Assembly: GCF_006265225.1 (NCBI RefSeq)
Contig: NZ_VDCS01000011.1
Coordinates: 124,001 to 188,000 of the forward strand
DNA from: Allotamlana fucoidanivorans
Lineage (GTDB): Bacteria > Bacteroidota > Bacteroidia > Flavobacteriales > Flavobacteriaceae
Reading direction: 5' to 3'
Length of the DNA stretch: 64,000 nt
Below the pieces are notes generated by a model. That model worked only from the letters and a program-made list of their open reading frames with translations, was not told the DNA's origin and made no database searches. The stretch's first letter is position 1. Each line of letters begins with the position of its first letter. This document shows positions 21,262-28,692 of the stretch, piece by piece. Both the position numbers and the translations under genes were made by a program.

Positions 21262-23523
21262 TTATTTCTGTTGTGCCAACTGCCCTCTTAATTGATTATA
21301 AAAGGTAACATAGTTTGAATTATTAGGATATAGATTCACAAGCGTTTCGCATACATTGGTGGCCTTTTGTATATCTCCACTTTTAGAATATACGTAAGCC
21401 AACATATATAATAAACTCTCATTTTGAGGCGCCTTTTTCAACCCTAAAGCCGCATATTTCTCTGCATTTTTTAAATCGTTAGATTTATCATACAGCAAAC
21501 TTAAATTATAATAAAGACGAATGTTATTTGGCATGCGATCTATAGCTAATTTCATTTGTGCAATAGCCTCATCATATCTATTTAGTTCTGCTAACAACAA
21601 AGCATATGAAAAATAGGTTTGCCCAAAGTCGGGCTCCTGCTTAATAATTGTTTTAAAGGCTTGCTCTGCTTTTTCAAAATCACCATTTCTGTAATACAAA
21701 TTAGCTAAATTAGTTCTAGCAATATTGTTAATATTATCAATCTCCAGAGCCTTTTCATACCATTTTATTGCTTCCAACAAATTACCCTTCTTTAATTCAT
21801 AATTGGCCCGTTTAACTCTACCTCCAACAAAATCAGACGTTACATTTAAACTCGCATTAAACTCTTTCTTCACTTTGCTGTAAACCTCTTTATAGGCTTG
21901 AGGAATTTGAAGTTCGTCAAAAGCACCTAAAGCAAAAAATGTTTTTACTCTTACTGCACGTTTTTCATCTTTTAACAATGGTAAGTAATACTCTAAATAA
22001 TCTGGAGAATCAAGACTACCCAAAACATCAAGCGTTGCACCTCTTACTAAGGCAGAATCGTCATTAAGAAAACGCAACATGTTGTTAATCACTTCTGGAT
22101 TTAAATAATTGGTCATGCTTTTTACTGCTGACGCTCTTGAAATTTCTGGGTAAATAGTATCGAGAACCAACTCCATTAAACTTTCAATACCATGTTCTGC
22201 ACCTGTTATACCTGGTGCTAATAATTCAGAAAAATGCTTGTTTTTGGGTTTCCCGAACAATGCTTGGTAATTTTCCCAAGCCCACGCATCATCCTTATCG
22301 TCATGACATTGCTTACACGCATTTGGTGAACCATATTTTAAACTTAAATCGGGTCTTGGAATTCTAAAACTATGGTCTCTTCTAAAATCATTTCCCATAT
22401 AATACTTTCCTGTCATATGACAATTAACACACTGAGCACTTTCAGTTCCTGATTCATGAAAATGATGAGAAGGCGTATCATAGGTCTCTGGCACATGACA
22501 TTGTGCACAAAGTTTATTACCTTCAAATTTTAATTTTAATGAATGTGGGTTATGGCAATCTGTACACATAACCCCATTTTGATACATTTTGCTCTGCACA
22601 AATGACCCATAGACATATACCTCATCTAAAATTTGACCATCAGGATAATACAGATTCTCCTCTATTAACTGTGGAAAATAATGATCTAACAAAGAGCCTT
22701 CAAAATTAAAATACTCTGTAATTTGCTCTCGTCTTATATGGCATCTAGCACATTGGTCTATCAACTCTTCTGAATCAATGCCAGGAGTCATTTTTAAGTC
22801 TCCTGCACCTTTATAAGCATCACCTAATTTATTGACTTGTTCAACATGCGTTTTACCAGGACCATGGCAAGCCTCGCAACTTACATTGATAAGCGCATAT
22901 TTAGTGTCATAGCTATGTGTTTGTAAATCATAATTTTTTCTAACATTGGTTGAATGACAATCAGAACACATAGTATTCCAATTTAATCCGCCTCTTGACC
23001 AATGCAGCCATTCTGAATGCACCACTTTAAAATCAGGATATAAATCAAACCATTTATTTTTTTCGGTATCCCAAGCGGTTCTTAAACATTGATAGTGACC
23101 GTTTGGAAATTTAACAATGTATTGCTGCAAGGGTGTGATGCCAAACACATATACAATATTATAATCATGATACTTACCATCTGGGCCTTCTGTGTTAACA
23201 TAATAATCTTCTCCTTTTTTATAAAAACGAGAGGTAACACCTTGACTTTTAAAGGTAACATTATTAAAATCACCCAATACCGTGGAAGCTTTTACCTCCT
23301 GCATCGCCTTATCATGATGAGAACCTTGCCATAGTTTATACTCTGCATCATGACATGCTTTACATTTCTCATCGCCTAAAAAATGACTATCAGGAATTTT
23401 ATCGGTAGATTTAAATACGGTTTCAATAGGTTCTTGGGCAGATATGTACTCTTTTTTTTCCTCTCTGCACGATGTCAGTACAGCTAAAAGTGCACCCACA
23501 AACCATAAACTAAAAGTCTTCAA
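21262..23523 (-). CDS. Octaheme c-type cytochrome lipoprotein fused to HEAT and TPR repeats
   Basis: 753 residues, TTG start giving MKTFSLWFVGALLAVLTSC, a lipobox with Cys19. Eight CxxCH heme-binding motifs lie at about 54, 186, 216, 258, 320, 339, 365 and 403, a layout resembling cytochrome c554/NrfA-related multiheme proteins. Residues about 430-560 look like HEAT repeats (ASAVKSMTNYL, VRGATLDVLGSLD, VRVKTFFALG) and 570-750 form TPRs (AIKWYEKALEIDNINNIART and following). It is probably anchored in the periplasmic face of a membrane and handles electrons, with the C-terminus as a protein-binding scaffold. No partner oxidoreductase or cytochrome biogenesis gene is adjacent. Redox partner and substrate are unknown. 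Confidence 0.88.
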   Translation of the reverse strand: MKTFSLWFVGALLAVLTSCREEKKEYISAQEPIETVFKSTDKIPDSHFLGDEKCKACHDAEYKLWQGSHHDKAMQEVKASTVLGDFNNVTFKSQGVTSRFYKKGEDYYVNTEGPDGKYHDYNIVYVFGITPLQQYIVKFPNGHYQCLRTAWDTEKNKWFDLYPDFKVVHSEWLHWSRGGLNWNTMCSDCHSTNVRKNYDLQTHSYDTKYALINVSCEACHGPGKTHVEQVNKLGDAYKGAGDLKMTPGIDSEELIDQCARCHIRREQITEYFNFEGSLLDHYFPQLIEENLYYPDGQILDEVYVYGSFVQSKMYQNGVMCTDCHNPHSLKLKFEGNKLCAQCHVPETYDTPSHHFHESGTESAQCVNCHMTGKYYMGNDFRRDHSFRIPRPDLSLKYGSPNACKQCHDDKDDAWAWENYQALFGKPKNKHFSELLAPGITGAEHGIESLMELVLDTIYPEISRASAVKSMTNYLNPEVINNMLRFLNDDSALVRGATLDVLGSLDSPDYLEYYLPLLKDEKRAVRVKTFFALGAFDELQIPQAYKEVYSKVKKEFNASLNVTSDFVGGRVKRANYELKKGNLLEAIKWYEKALEIDNINNIARTNLANLYYRNGDFEKAEQAFKTIIKQEPDFGQTYFSYALLLAELNRYDEAIAQMKLAIDRMPNNIRLYYNLSLLYDKSNDLKNAEKYAALGLKKAPQNESLLYMLAYVYSKSGDIQKATNVCETLVNLYPNNSNYVTFYNQLRGQLAQQK

Positions 23524-23745: not shown

Positions 23746-23763
23746 TAATTTTGTTTAACAAAA
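23746..23763 (+). promoter_or_regulatory. Promoter with overlapping palindrome of the CarH-like gene
   Basis: TAATTTTG (23746-23753) matches the -7 consensus. The palindrome TTTTGTT-T-AACAAAA (23749-23763) overlaps it; its core TTGTTTAACAA recurs at the crtI promoter in the same register. Candidate auto-operator. Confidence 0.6.
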
Positions 23764-23774
23764 ATAAAGTTTTA

Positions 23775-24674
23775 ATGAACAATATTAAGATAAACTTTAG
23801 TATTAAAGATCTTGAAAACCTAACGGGAATTAAAGCACATACCATTAGAATTTGGGAAAAGCGCTATAATTTACTTCAACCGAATAGATCAGACACTAAT
23901 ATAAGAAGTTATAGTTTAGTAAGTTTTCAAAAACTATTAAACATCTCTTATTTAAATAATAATGGGTTAAAAATATCTAAAATTGCTGAACTAAAGGAAG
24001 AGGAAATACCAATAAAAGTAAGAGAAATTGCTTCACGAGCTCAGGTTGAAGACCACGCCATTAATGCCTTAAAAATGGCCATGATTAATTTTGATCAAGT
24101 CCTATTTTATAGTACTTATAACAACTTACTAGAAAACAAAACCTTTAGTGAGATTTTCTACTCAGTGTTTTTACCCTTATTAAATGAGATTGGATTATTA
24201 TGGCAAACCAACACCATAACTCCTGCCCATGAGCATTTTTTGTCTATTCATATAAAGCAAAAGATTTTGCTGAACATTGAGCGCCTTCAACTATTAGAAC
24301 CCAAACCTGTTTCAAAAACCTTTGTTTTATTTTTACCAGATCATGAAATTCATGATATAGGGTTATTGTTTATTAATTATGAATTGAGAAGTAGAGGATT
24401 CCATACCATATTTTTGGGAGAAAGTGTACCCATGCAAAGCTTAAGTGATTTATTAGAGTTTTATGACGATGTTACCTTCATATCCTATTTTACCGTAAAT
24501 CCGGCTCCCGAAGATATTCCAGAATACATTCAAGATTTCAACGAACTCTTACTCCAAAAAGACAGGACTCAACTTCTATTATTAGGCAAAAAGCTTGAAG
24601 ATTTACAAATAGACAATCTTCCTGAAAAGGTAACCATTTATAATTCTATCGAAAATTTAGTAAAAGCTTTATAA
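23775..24674 (+). CDS. MerR-family regulator with B12-binding domain (CarH/LitR-like)
   Basis: 299 residues from ATG 23775; an upstream TTG (23751) lies inside the -7 box and is not used. Residues 6-75 form a MerR-type winged helix (LTGIKAHTIRIWEKRYNLL). Residues about 90-175 fit the four-helix cap of methylcobalamin-type proteins and contain the CarH signature W-x9-EH exactly (Trp143, Glu153, His154). About 180-299 is the Rossmann-like cobalamin-binding domain with EIHDIG at 191-196: the usual DxHxxG has Glu first, but the axial ligand His193 is kept. CarH-type proteins repress carotenoid genes in the dark with adenosylcobalamin and release DNA in light. It precedes crtI on the same strand with a shared palindrome. 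B12 binding and light response are inference; B12-independent relatives exist. Confidence 0.85.
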   Translation: MNNIKINFSIKDLENLTGIKAHTIRIWEKRYNLLQPNRSDTNIRSYSLVSFQKLLNISYLNNNGLKISKIAELKEEEIPIKVREIASRAQVEDHAINALKMAMINFDQVLFYSTYNNLLENKTFSEIFYSVFLPLLNEIGLLWQTNTITPAHEHFLSIHIKQKILLNIERLQLLEPKPVSKTFVLFLPDHEIHDIGLLFINYELRSRGFHTIFLGESVPMQSLSDLLEFYDDVTFISYFTVNPAPEDIPEYIQDFNELLLQKDRTQLLLLGKKLEDLQIDNLPEKVTIYNSIENLVKAL

Positions 24675-24700
24675 AAATTTTATATTGTTTATCTTTTTTT

Positions 24701-24716
24701 TATATTTGTTAAACAA
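24701..24716 (+). promoter_or_regulatory. crtI promoter with overlapping palindrome
   Basis: TATATTTG (24701-24708) is a -7 box; the palindrome TTGTT-A-AACAA (24706-24716) overlaps it exactly as at the regulator's own promoter. It ends one base before ATG 24718, so the transcript would be nearly leaderless. A half-like site TTGTTTATC lies at 24685-24693. Confidence 0.6.
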
Positions 24717-24717
24717 T

Positions 24718-26190
24718 ATGAAAACAACTGTTCACATAATCGGATCTGGCTTCTCATCACTTGCAGCAGCTTGTTATTTAGCCCAAGATGGCTTTAAAGT
24801 TACTATTTTTGAAAAAAACAATACTATTGGTGGTCGTGCAAGACAACTAAAAAAAGATGGCTTTACCTTTGATATAGGCCCCACTTGGTATTGGATGCCC
24901 GACGTTTTTGAGCGCTTTTTTGGAGATTTCAATAAAAAACCATCAGATTACTACACACTTGAAAAGTTAAATCCTGCTTACAGTGTATATTTTGGAAAAA
25001 ATGACCTCATCACAATTGAAGACACCCTTGAAAAAATTTCTAAAGCTTTTGAAAATGAAGAACCAGGCAGCTCTAAAAAATTAGCAACCTTTATACAAAA
25101 TGCAAAAAGCAACTACGATATAGCCATAAAAGACCTTGTTTACAACCCTGGACTTTCGCCACTTGAGTTAATTACCCCAAATACTATCAAAAAAATTAAT
25201 CAGTTTTTTAGTACCATTCAAAAAGATGTAAGAAAAGAATTTAAAAATGACCGTCTGGTTAAAATTTTAGAATTCCCCGTGCTATTTCTAGGTGCCAAAC
25301 CTAGTGACACGCCTTCTTTTTACAGTTTTATGAACTATGCCGATTTTGGTTTGGGCACTTTTCATCCAAAAAAGGGAATGTATCAGGTCATTCTAGCCAT
25401 GGAACATTTAGCTAAAGAACTTGGCGTAACCATAAAAACAAACGCCAATATTGAAAGTATAATTGTTGAAGATAAAACGGCAAAAGGACTTATTTGTGGC
25501 GGTAAAGCGTTTTATTCTAATATTGTTCTCAGTGGTGCAGATTATCATCATACTGAAACCTTACTGGACAAAGCGTACCGACAATACTCTGAAACTTTTT
25601 GGTCTAAAAAAACATTTGCACCAGCTGCCCTACTTTTTTATGTGGGTTTCGATAAAACATTAAAGCATGTAAATCATCATACACTGTTCTTTGATGTAGA
25701 TTTTGAAAACCACGCCAAAAGCATTTATGATAATCCAAAATGGCCCGAAAGCCCCTTGTTTTATGCTAGTTTCCCGAGTAAAACAGATGATTTTTTTGCC
25801 CCTGAGGGTAAAGAGGCAGGCATTTTTTTAATTCCATTAGCACCAGGTATAGAAGACAATGACAACATTAGAAAAGAATACTTTAACAAGATAATAGCTC
25901 GATTTGAACATGTAACCTCTCAAAAGGTATCAGAAGACATCTTGTTTTATGAAAGTTTTTGTATCAATGATTTTATAAAAGATTACAATTCATATAAAGG
26001 GAATGCGTACGGTATGGCCAACACGCTTTTACAAACCGCGTTTTTAAGACCTAAATTAAAAAGCAAAACGGTAAAAAACCTTTTCTTCACAGGGCAGTTA
26101 ACTGTACCTGGTCCAGGAGTACCTCCTTCATTAATATCAGGAAAATTGGCGGCTAACCTTATTTCAAAACAGTTTGGCGTATTAGTTTAA
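24718..26190 (+). CDS. crtI: Phytoene desaturase
   Basis: 490 residues from ATG 24718; the longer in-frame start at 24685 lies upstream of the promoter box and gives no useful N-terminus. A dinucleotide-binding motif HIIGSGFSSLAAACYLAQDG begins at residue 5 and the FAD-linked acidic end is FEKN. NNTIGGRARQL, and the C-terminal signature FFTGQLTVPGPGVPPSLISG, identify bacterial CrtI, which adds double bonds to phytoene to make lycopene (the product range cannot be fixed from sequence). Membrane-associated flavoprotein. First gene of the crtI-crtB-crtZ-crtY unit, behind the CarH-like regulator. Confidence 0.95.
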   Translation: MKTTVHIIGSGFSSLAAACYLAQDGFKVTIFEKNNTIGGRARQLKKDGFTFDIGPTWYWMPDVFERFFGDFNKKPSDYYTLEKLNPAYSVYFGKNDLITIEDTLEKISKAFENEEPGSSKKLATFIQNAKSNYDIAIKDLVYNPGLSPLELITPNTIKKINQFFSTIQKDVRKEFKNDRLVKILEFPVLFLGAKPSDTPSFYSFMNYADFGLGTFHPKKGMYQVILAMEHLAKELGVTIKTNANIESIIVEDKTAKGLICGGKAFYSNIVLSGADYHHTETLLDKAYRQYSETFWSKKTFAPAALLFYVGFDKTLKHVNHHTLFFDVDFENHAKSIYDNPKWPESPLFYASFPSKTDDFFAPEGKEAGIFLIPLAPGIEDNDNIRKEYFNKIIARFEHVTSQKVSEDILFYESFCINDFIKDYNSYKGNAYGMANTLLQTAFLRPKLKSKTVKNLFFTGQLTVPGPGVPPSLISGKLAANLISKQFGVLV

Positions 26191-26226: not shown

Positions 26227-27066
26227 ATGAAAGCACTATTTGATACCGTTTCTTACAAGAGCAGCAAGCTTGTAACAACAACCTATAGCACCTCTTTTTC
26301 TTTGGCTACCAAAATGCTATATAAATCGATAAGGAATGATATTTACAATATTTATGGTTTTGTAAGATTGGCTGATGAAATTGTTGATAGTTTTCATGAT
26401 TACAATAAAGAAATGCTTTTTGAAAGGTTCTCTGATGATTTAGAACTTGCTATACATCATAAAGTGAGCTTAAATCCCATTTTAAATGCCTTCCAGCACA
26501 CGTTTCATAAATATAATATTGATAAAGCTTTAGTTGATGCATTCATGCATAGCATGGAATTAGATTTACATAAAACAGAATATCTCACAGAGACCGAGTA
26601 TAGGAATTATATTTATGGATCTGCTGATGTGGTTGGTTTAATGTGCTTAAAGGTTTTTGTTAAGGGAGATACTGAAAAATATGAAGAATTAAAAGACACT
26701 GCCATGGCACTTGGATCTGCCTTTCAAAAAGTTAATTTTCTTCGTGATTTAAAAACTGACTTTGAAGGTTTAAACAGAACGTATTTCCCTAATACCGACT
26801 TAGAAAACTTAGACGAAACATCTAAAAAAGAGATTATTGGTGATATTGAAGCTGATTTTTCTAAAGGATTACAAGGCATAAAAAAACTACCTATCGAAGC
26901 AAAATTTGGTGTTTTTATGGCCTATCGCTATTACCGTCAACTCATGAAAAAACTTAAAAGTACTCCTGCTTTAAAAATAAAAGAATCTAGAATTAGAGTT
27001 TCAAATCCTAAAAAAATTGAACTTTTAGCTAGAAGTTATGTCAAATATCAACTAAATTTATTATAA
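26227..27066 (+). CDS. crtB: Phytoene synthase
   Basis: 279 residues from ATG 26227 (an in-frame TTG at 26191, directly after the crtI stop, is less likely). The two Asp-rich motifs that bind the Mg-diphosphate are present: RLADEIVDSF near residue 57 and NFLRDLKTDFEGLNRTYFP near 165-183. CrtB condenses two geranylgeranyl diphosphates to phytoene, the first committed carotenoid step. It follows crtI by 36 bases and precedes crtZ by 10 bases. No crtE (GGPP synthase) is in the window, so the precursor must come from elsewhere in the genome. Confidence 0.95.
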   Translation: MKALFDTVSYKSSKLVTTTYSTSFSLATKMLYKSIRNDIYNIYGFVRLADEIVDSFHDYNKEMLFERFSDDLELAIHHKVSLNPILNAFQHTFHKYNIDKALVDAFMHSMELDLHKTEYLTETEYRNYIYGSADVVGLMCLKVFVKGDTEKYEELKDTAMALGSAFQKVNFLRDLKTDFEGLNRTYFPNTDLENLDETSKKEIIGDIEADFSKGLQGIKKLPIEAKFGVFMAYRYYRQLMKKLKSTPALKIKESRIRVSNPKKIELLARSYVKYQLNLL

Positions 27067-27076
27067 AATTTACGTC

Positions 27077-27526
27077 ATGCATTTTGTTTATTGGATATTG
27101 ATTTTTTTGGGCACTTATTGTTTTATGGAGTTTATGGCTTGGTTTACACATAAATATATTATGCACGGTTTTTTATGGAGCCTGCATAAAGACCATCATC
27201 ATAAAGACCATGATAGCTGGTTTGAACGCAATGACACCTTTTTTATTTTTTATGCCATTGTGAGTATTGGGTTCTTCCTATTATGGAAATATACAAGTTT
27301 CTGGCCAGGACTGCCCATTGGGTTAGGTATTTTTGCATACGGACTATCTTATTTCTTGGTTCATGATATATTTATTCATCAACGATTTAAAATGTTTAGG
27401 AACGCCAACAACTGGTACGCCAGAGGCGTAAGGCGAGCACATAAAATACATCATAAACATTTAGGAAAAGATGATGGTGAATGCTTCGGAATGCTATTTG
27501 TACCTTTCAAATATTTCAAAAAATAA
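27077..27526 (+). CDS. crtZ: Beta-carotene hydroxylase
   Basis: 149 residues with several membrane helices and the full set of di-iron histidine motifs: HKYIMH near 24-29, HKDHHH near 36-41, HDIFIH near 95-100 and HKIHHKH near 120-126. This is the fatty-acid-hydroxylase-type CrtZ that hydroxylates the beta-ionone rings of beta-carotene to give beta-cryptoxanthin and zeaxanthin. It lies 10 bases after crtB. The product supports zeaxanthin as the pathway end point in the window; no ketolase (crtW) is present. Confidence 0.93.
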   Translation: MHFVYWILIFLGTYCFMEFMAWFTHKYIMHGFLWSLHKDHHHKDHDSWFERNDTFFIFYAIVSIGFFLLWKYTSFWPGLPIGLGIFAYGLSYFLVHDIFIHQRFKMFRNANNWYARGVRRAHKIHHKHLGKDDGECFGMLFVPFKYFKK

Positions 27527-27543
27527 CAGATTATCAGATACGT

Positions 27544-28692
27544 ATGACTCGTGACACCTCCCATTTTGACTATATCATTATAGGAAGTGGATTAGCAGGA
27601 TTTCAGCTCGCTTTAAAAATGGCTTCTGATAGTTTTTTTTCTGATAAAAAAATAGCACTTATAGACCCTTCTAAAAAAACTAAAAATGACAAAACCTGGA
27701 GTTTTTGGGAAAAACAACCTAGTTTTTGGGATGATTTAGTTTTCAAGTCGTGGCAAAAAGCATCCATAATAACCTCTAAGGACTCCATAACACTCAACCT
27801 TGTACCTTATTGTTACAAAACCATTAAATCTATTGATTTTTACAGCTATGCCAAACAAATTCTAAACAACAAAAAAAACTTTATAGTTCATCACGAAACA
27901 GTTACTAACACTTCAGAATTAGAATACGTAAAGGTCACAACAGATAAAAACACCTATACCGCTCATCATGTGTTTGACAGCCGTATTCCTGACACCTTTA
28001 ACATAAATACCTCTAAACATAGTTCCATCATTCAACACTTTAAAGGTTGGGTTATAAGGTGTAATACCAATGTTTTTGACAACCATTGTATGACTATGAT
28101 GGACTTTAGATTAAAAGATGGCAACCAAACCACCTTCACTTATGTTTTGCCGTTTTCAAAAAATGAAGCCTTAATAGAGTTTACTTATTTCACAAAAGAA
28201 ACGGTTGAAGCATCAGTTTATGACGAATATATTGCCCAATATATTACCAATTACTTGAACATTGATTCCTACACTATCGTTGAAACTGAAATAGGACAAA
28301 TACCTATGACCGATTATCCTTTTGAAAAACTCAATACCCTTCGTATCACAAAAATTGGAACCGCTGGAGGTTGGGTAAAAGGCTCTACAGGCTATGCTTT
28401 TAAACACACCGAAAAAAAGGCACATCGAATTATTGAGAACATAAAAGCAAACCGTTTACCAACTTATAAACTTTCAAAAAAACGGTTTAAGTTCTATGAT
28501 AAAATATTTCTTAAAGTTTTACAGGACGAAAACGAAAAAGGCGAATGGATTTTTTATCAATTTTATAAAAAAAACAACGTACAAACCATGTTTAAATTTC
28601 TTGATGAAGAATCCACCTTTTTTGAAGACCTCCAAATCATGTGGTCGTTGTTCTCTTTCAGTTTTATAAAAGCCTTTTTTAAAACTCTTTAA
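27544..28692 (+). CDS. crtY: Lycopene beta-cyclase
   Basis: 382 residues from ATG 27544; an earlier in-frame start at 27481 would overlap crtZ by 46 bases and is rejected. The N-terminus FDYIIIGSGLAGFQLALKMA is the flavin-binding fold, followed by the segment TWSFWE and, near the middle, GWVIRC and the conserved GTAGGWVKGSTGYAF. This is CrtY-type lycopene cyclase, closing both ends of lycopene to make beta-carotene. It is the last gene of the crt unit, 17 bases after crtZ; its stop codon overlaps the convergent TlpA-like gene by 4 bases. Confidence 0.93.
   Translation: MTRDTSHFDYIIIGSGLAGFQLALKMASDSFFSDKKIALIDPSKKTKNDKTWSFWEKQPSFWDDLVFKSWQKASIITSKDSITLNLVPYCYKTIKSIDFYSYAKQILNNKKNFIVHHETVTNTSELEYVKVTTDKNTYTAHHVFDSRIPDTFNINTSKHSSIIQHFKGWVIRCNTNVFDNHCMTMMDFRLKDGNQTTFTYVLPFSKNEALIEFTYFTKETVEASVYDEYIAQYITNYLNIDSYTIVETEIGQIPMTDYPFEKLNTLRITKIGTAGGWVKGSTGYAFKHTEKKAHRIIENIKANRLPTYKLSKKRFKFYDKIFLKVLQDENEKGEWIFYQFYKKNNVQTMFKFLDEESTFFEDLQIMWSLFSFSFIKAFFKTL

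Follow-up and report, generated by a model that had tools for sequence, protein, structure and literature searches.

A predicted CarH-type operator of two inverted half-sites at carotenoid and photoprotection genes of Flavobacteriaceae

Introduction

What controls a CarH-like regulator gene and the carotenoid genes that follow it in Allotamlana fucoidanivorans? The question is raised by a stretch of 64,000 nucleotides (contig NZ_VDCS01000011.1, positions 124,001 to 188,000), referred to here as the window. Its plus strand carries a gene for a 299-aa regulator with a MerR HTH and a B12-binding region (carH, 23775..24674), followed on the same strand by crtI for phytoene desaturase (24718..26190; NCBIfam NF058655, above cut-off), crtB for phytoene synthase (26227..27066; Pfam SQS_PSY), a probable crtZ for beta-carotene hydroxylase (27077..27526; by inference from His-rich motifs and place in the cluster, with no Pfam match) and crtY for lycopene cyclase (27544..28692; Pfam Lycopene_cycl). 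An earlier note on this DNA had seen a short palindrome at the promoters of carH and crtI, and had proposed it as the operator of a light/B12 switch acting on the regulator gene itself and on the crt genes. We find the idea to be essentially right; the operator as drawn was wrong, and the rest of the regulon had been missed.

Results

The 11-bp palindrome TTGTTNAACAA is perfect at both promoters. On the carH side, TTGTTTAACAA (23751-23761), nested in the 15-base palindrome TTTTGTTTAACAAAA (23749-23763), lies 13 nt upstream of the ATG of the regulator gene (23775); on the crtI side, TTGTTAAACAA (24706-24716) lies 1 nt upstream of the ATG of crtI (24718). Each copy overlaps a TAnnTTTG box, TAATTTTG at 23746-23753 and TATATTTG at 24701-24708, with the left TTG of the palindrome common to the box. 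In all of this the sequence reads as the earlier note had described it, including the position of the left arms on the TTTG of the boxes. These two are the only exact matches in the whole window. The note had also estimated well under one chance copy and had called two copies notable; dinucleotide shuffles of the window agree with the first statement (mean 0.41 copies), and the second is weakened, because two or more copies arose in 7/100 shuffles, making a count of two in 64 kb only marginally unusual. Across the genome (4.02 Mb) the 11-mer occurs at 23 places, as compared with 21 for the reversed control. This lack of enrichment is the random scatter that the note had itself named as counting against its proposal, and we dropped the 11-mer as a genome-wide signal. 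The pattern TAnnTTTGTTWAAC alone was not specific either (5/6 matches versus 7/5 for the control). What makes the two copies significant is where they lie and that they are conserved; the 11-mer is not itself the unit of conservation.

We compared 80 orthologous loci for conservation of the carH-crtI region. The gap between the two genes contains two inverted arms, TTGTTTAAC-N14-GTTAAACAA, the second directly after TATATTTG. A search of 201 genomes of the family for this pattern of 9-bp arms, allowing spacers of 12 to 16 and using the reversed pattern as a control, gave 46 matches versus 3 for the control; the spacer is nearly always exactly 14, and 22 of the 30 places that were fetched lie between carH and crtI. 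The core that is constant over all operators is TTGTTTA-N18-TRAACAW (also written TTGTTTA-N18-TRAACAA), and both of its arms contain TnnACA, in opposite directions, in 97-100% of aligned operators. TnnACA is the half-site of CarH, whose known operators are 11-bp direct repeats, nnnnTnnACAn (PMC9304148). An offset scan found no 11-bp direct repeats at the operators studied here, which excludes that arrangement; the only constant features are the two inverted arms. Hence a predicted operator that is larger than the 11-mer, consisting of two inverted CarH-type half-sites in the form TTGTTTA-N18-TRAACAA, is well supported by the comparison. A non-exhaustive search of the open-access literature found no CarH operators in Bacteroidetes or flavobacteria, and the predicted element adds a new form to the operators of CarH/LitR regulators.

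At crtI, the predicted operator is TTGTTTA-N18-TAAACAA (24685..24716, plus strand), with its left arm at 24685-24691 and its right arm at 24710-24716; it is conserved base by base across orthologous carH-crtI gaps. The predicted -7 box, TATATTTG (24701..24708, plus strand), called from sequence and conservation, lies inside it, together with the spacer and the predicted transcription start. The element is present in 56 of the 71 carH-crtI gaps that are long enough (37-120 nt). Of the 15 gaps without it, three were judged by eye to contain a version whose spacer is longer by one base, and about 12 of the 71 gaps are without any form of the element. It is also absent from the nine loci, mostly of Maribacter, with a gap of 36 nt or less, an arrangement that fits a single carH promoter serving both genes. 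The distance from the -7 box to the ATG of crtI is 9 nt in the window and 7-10 nt in 52/56 loci; so short a distance predicts a crtI mRNA with almost no leader.

At carH, the predicted operator, TTGTTTA-N18-TGAACAA (23751..23782, plus strand), spans the region from the -7 box to the start codon. Its left arm (23751-23757) overlaps the predicted -7 box TAATTTTG (23746..23753, plus strand), in which TA and TTTG are near-invariant among 79 orthologous upstream regions, and its right arm (23776-23782) is formed by the start codon together with codons 2 and 3 (aTGAACAA). The assignment draws on arm spacing and on conservation of codon 2. In 74/81 carH orthologues the arm and the ATG are 24 nt apart, and codon 2 is AAC in 77 of the 79 orthologues with Asn there, as compared with 664 of 2008 Asn codons (33%) elsewhere in carH and 21/72 Asn second codons of other ORFs in these loci; the sequences are related, such that p values for these statistics are nominal, and the pattern recurs across lineages. 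In one exceptional locus (L041) codon 2 is AAT, and the whole element is displaced upstream by 21 nt; in two others (L057 and L081) the element is fully upstream of the gene, and the proteins start MSS and MES. These lineages behave as natural mutants, in which moving the operator elsewhere is accompanied by loss of the start-codon signature. In four loci (L059, L063, L065 and L066) the gene starts one codon earlier (ATG ATA AAC AA), and a perfect TAAACAA arm is therefore possible. Operator-like DNA is conserved at both promoters, that of the MerR/B12-type regulator gene and that of crtI, and comparison gives good support to the proposed CarH switch on its own gene and on crtI.

Two observations concern the surroundings of carH. 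Contigs labelled as Klebsiella or Rhizobium MAGs (L065, L070 and L076) carry carH loci that are flavobacterial, and the labels are for that reason probably the result of mis-binning or mislabelling. In the window, a gene for a multihaem cytochrome/TPR protein (21262-23523, minus strand) is divergent from carH and about 230 bp away; a second exact element was not seen on that gene's side of the intergenic region.

In the window's genome, TTGTTTA-N18-TRAACAW has exact matches at eight places. Counted by strand there are 12 hits versus 3.7 expected from a Markov model of the window, a modest excess that is not decisive alone. Besides carH and crtI, the exact matches lie upstream of a TetR-AarF-flavin reductase-NmrA operon, upstream of a DUF-folE-SDR-GPx-TspO-photolyase cluster, and upstream of two fasciclin genes, the first with two tandem copies and the second with a tandem partner at one mismatch. 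At the TetR and DUF genes a separate -7 box closely follows the element. The element was present at the TetR-AarF operon in 16/16 carH-containing relatives read, and at the DUF-folE-photolyase cluster in 30/30 within two mismatches, 26 of them exact, with a spacer that varies in sequence. A blind search of other genomes led to non-crt places that are mostly linked to fasciclin, TetR-AarF, folE, SDR/CIA30, SRPBCC or photolyase genes, with a few unrelated ones among them. The relatives thus repeat the target set of the window's genome, and the predicted regulon is unusually clear. Another of the eight places precedes a mevalonate kinase gene (L217 2901-2932; C140:213400), where only 7/30 relatives have the element; in some species, carotenoids and the supply of isoprenoids may be under joint control.

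Two further features of these targets were seen. The two genes with a fasciclin domain (FAS1; L142 6947-7021 and L216 3578-3648) each have the element twice in tandem, at a distance of about 40 bp. The first gene of the folE-photolyase cluster, behind one of the best-conserved operators, codes for a conserved 142-aa protein (L143 11059-11487) that matches nothing in Pfam or NCBIfam.

The exact element occurs in 43 of 165 genomes with carH and in 1 of 36 without (p=0.0014; the genomes are related and not independent, and some of those without carH are incomplete). Seven genomes in which a clear carH was not found have no element before crtI, and it was also absent at crtI in the cases read where carH is unlinked to crtI. 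Dependence of the operator on carH is thereby upheld: the element is gone where carH is missing. The sole genome without carH that has an exact element (G080) is 81% complete, and carH may be missing from the assembly; there (L098 and L183), the exact element precedes a gene for a GLPGLI-type protein, and a version with three mismatches precedes tetR.

The earlier note's assignment of the regulator to the CarH type is borne out by Pfam, alignment, orthologue motifs and a fold match. The protein has Pfam domains MerR_1 and B12-binding_2, it aligns to Thermus CarH across HTH and cap and over part of the Rossmann domain, and its closest solved structure, both by sequence and by fold, is CarH. In a structure search with an AlphaFold model based on 53 orthologues (mean pLDDT 84.9), Thermus CarH structures rank first, and the B12 region matches CarH cobalamin domains with target TM-scores of about 0.77-0.85; the modelled protein matches CarH throughout and has the class I CarH/LitR architecture of MerR HTH, four-helix cap and Rossmann fold. 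No second CarH paralogue was found in the genome, carH being the sole gene of its kind. The HTH motif, RxWEKRY, is close to the RxWERRY of CarH; Wx9EH, which contacts the adenosyl group, is present in 81/81 orthologues; and the axial-His motif E/DxHxxG appears as EIHDIG or variants in 80/81, with His193 in 81/81. The residue after the Trp, which is His132 in Thermus CarH, is Gln in 81/81. Where the rest of the B12 motif (x41 SxT/V x22-27 GG) would lie, reading by eye from translation and conservation gives S237-Y-F-T240 and G271-K; the SxT and GG parts look degenerate, and the Rossmann B12 Pfam domain had no match in the regulator even at E<1. The best-matching NCBIfam family is the CarH equivalog NF052513, at 68 bits versus a curated cut-off of 400, and by that rule the regulator is classed as a distant relative, not an equivalog.

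In Thermus CarH, His132 is the upper ligand after photolysis and is important for tetramer disassembly, and the H132A mutant mostly remains tetrameric in the light (PMC10442372). The light-state His is absent from two proteins that were picked out by a light-response signature and then tested, CtMerR (with Arg there) and the photocobilin SasPcob (with Gln); this residue is variable even among confirmed photoreceptors of the fold, and is not strictly defining (PMC11796333). Given the invariant Wx9EH and axial His, the Gln in place of His132, and the precedents of CtMerR and SasPcob, we consider B12 binding by the flavobacterial regulator likely and light sensing plausible, with a photochemistry that probably differs from the Thermus type. 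The genome encodes an ATP:cobalamin adenosyltransferase, which would supply AdoCbl.

Discussion

Our favoured reading, which we hold with considerable though not full confidence, is that a CarH-type repressor uses the element TTGTTTA-N18-TRAACAA to control its own gene, crtIBZY and other targets. The shape of the element, its conservation, its target set and its dependence on carH come from comparison of genomes, and from these we infer binding by a CarH-type protein, repression, and control by B12 and light. A flavobacterial CarH-type protein, probably oligomeric, would bind the two inverted TnnACA half-sites; most likely, the promoter is blocked by an oligomer that bridges the half-sites, which are separated by 27 bp when measured from the centre of TGT to that of ACA. 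Lying over or beside the -7 box, the bound repressor would keep RNA polymerase out. Because the placement of the element varies, we prefer a repressor to a classical MerR activator. Autorepression of carH would act through the operator that has the start codon as its right arm; the further repressed targets would be crtIBZY, the TetR-AarF operon, the DUF-folE-photolyase cluster and the two fasciclin genes, with mevalonate kinase added in some species. The analogy of CarH/LitR suggests that the protein would bind in the dark, in its AdoCbl form, and be released by light. We lean towards a broader interpretation, that this is a distinct flavobacterial branch of CarH, with inverted half-sites, an autoregulatory operator at the start codon that dictates the first residues and codons, and signalling without a bis-His switch.

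An alternative possibility is that the CarH-type protein binds the element and responds not to light but to B12 supply or redox state. The Gln that replaces the light-state His in every orthologue, the behaviour of Thermus H132A (PMC10442372) and the partly degenerate B12 Rossmann motifs are consistent with this. We nonetheless consider it rather unlikely, since the targets are photoprotective (photolyase, carotenoids, folE), the reader of the adenosyl group, Wx9EH, is invariant, and photoreceptors of the same fold with Gln or Arg at this position exist (PMC11796333).

The element might instead be the operator of the TetR-family protein of the AarF operon, regulating itself and the crt genes. 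TetR proteins commonly bind inverted repeats and regulate their own genes, and the element is upstream of tetR in all 16 carH-containing relatives read. The distribution of the two regulators makes this improbable: G060 (99% complete) lacks carH and has both crtI (80% identity) and the TetR gene (54% identity), with no element at either, whereas several genomes with carH and the crtI element, such as G019, have no detectable TetR. In addition, the arms match CarH half-sites. Genomes without one or the other regulator thus speak against TetR as the binder.

Slightly more improbable still is that TTGTTNAACAA itself is the operator, with one copy per promoter, as the earlier note had it. The palindrome is perfect at both promoters of the window and conserved at many crtI promoters. 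Nonetheless, besides lacking genome-wide enrichment, it lacks its right half in most carH orthologues, is rarely kept at other targets of the element (2-3/28 and 2/15 sites), and is seldom seen at operators lying clear of a -7 box. Most of its left half is the TTTG of the -7 box; at crtI, the 11-mer is the right arm of the element plus TT of the -7 box, and its inner half coincides with the TTTG. Least probable of all is an extended flavobacterial core promoter that is no regulator site: TAnnTTTG, the Bacteroidota -7 box, does overlap the element at crtI and carH, but at the TetR and DUF genes the entire element is upstream of a separate -7 box, the right arm at carH is within coding sequence, and the same genes in genomes lacking carH are without the element.

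Returning to the CarH-type repressor, its closest known counterparts are CarH of Thermus thermophilus, Bacillus megaterium and myxobacteria, which share the MerR HTH and B12-binding domains, Wx9EH, the axial His and the fold, as well as the TnnACA half-site, a gene beside crt genes and an operator over promoter elements (PMC9304148, PMC10442372). Those systems have at least three tandem 11-bp direct repeats, whereas here there are two inverted half-sites 18 bp apart; Thermus CarH has His132 where the flavobacterial protein has Gln; and the overlap with the start codon is not described for CarH in these papers. LitR/PplR class II of Pseudomonas, of the same superfamily, also has two half-sites per operator, and the genes induced by light there are of the same kinds, namely photolyase, cryptochrome, folE and short-chain dehydrogenase; unlike the system proposed here, these regulators are thought to be B12-free and to act with a LOV protein, and their sites are TGTACA-N12-TGTACA (PMC9758184). 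The crt operator of CarA of Myxococcus xanthus, a CarH relative, has also been described as inverted repeats, but CarA is B12-independent, is without the Trp of Wx9EH, and needs CarS for release (PMC9304148). Lastly, Chryseobacterium lacus, of the same order, is white in the dark and yellow in the light, with crt genes that are light-induced, although its authors found no car or lit genes (PMC7064467).

The comparison supplies a predicted CarH operator for Bacteroidota, together with its regulon and natural mutants, in a group that is common in sunlit water and in which at least one relative has been reported to make carotenoid only in the light. The start-codon operator would clearly exemplify regulatory DNA that determines the sequence of a protein as well as its choice of codons, and the compact inverted operator may be of use in optogenetics. 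For the flavobacteria themselves, the regulon predicts which genes would be turned on in the light, and B12 supply would be tied to photoprotection.
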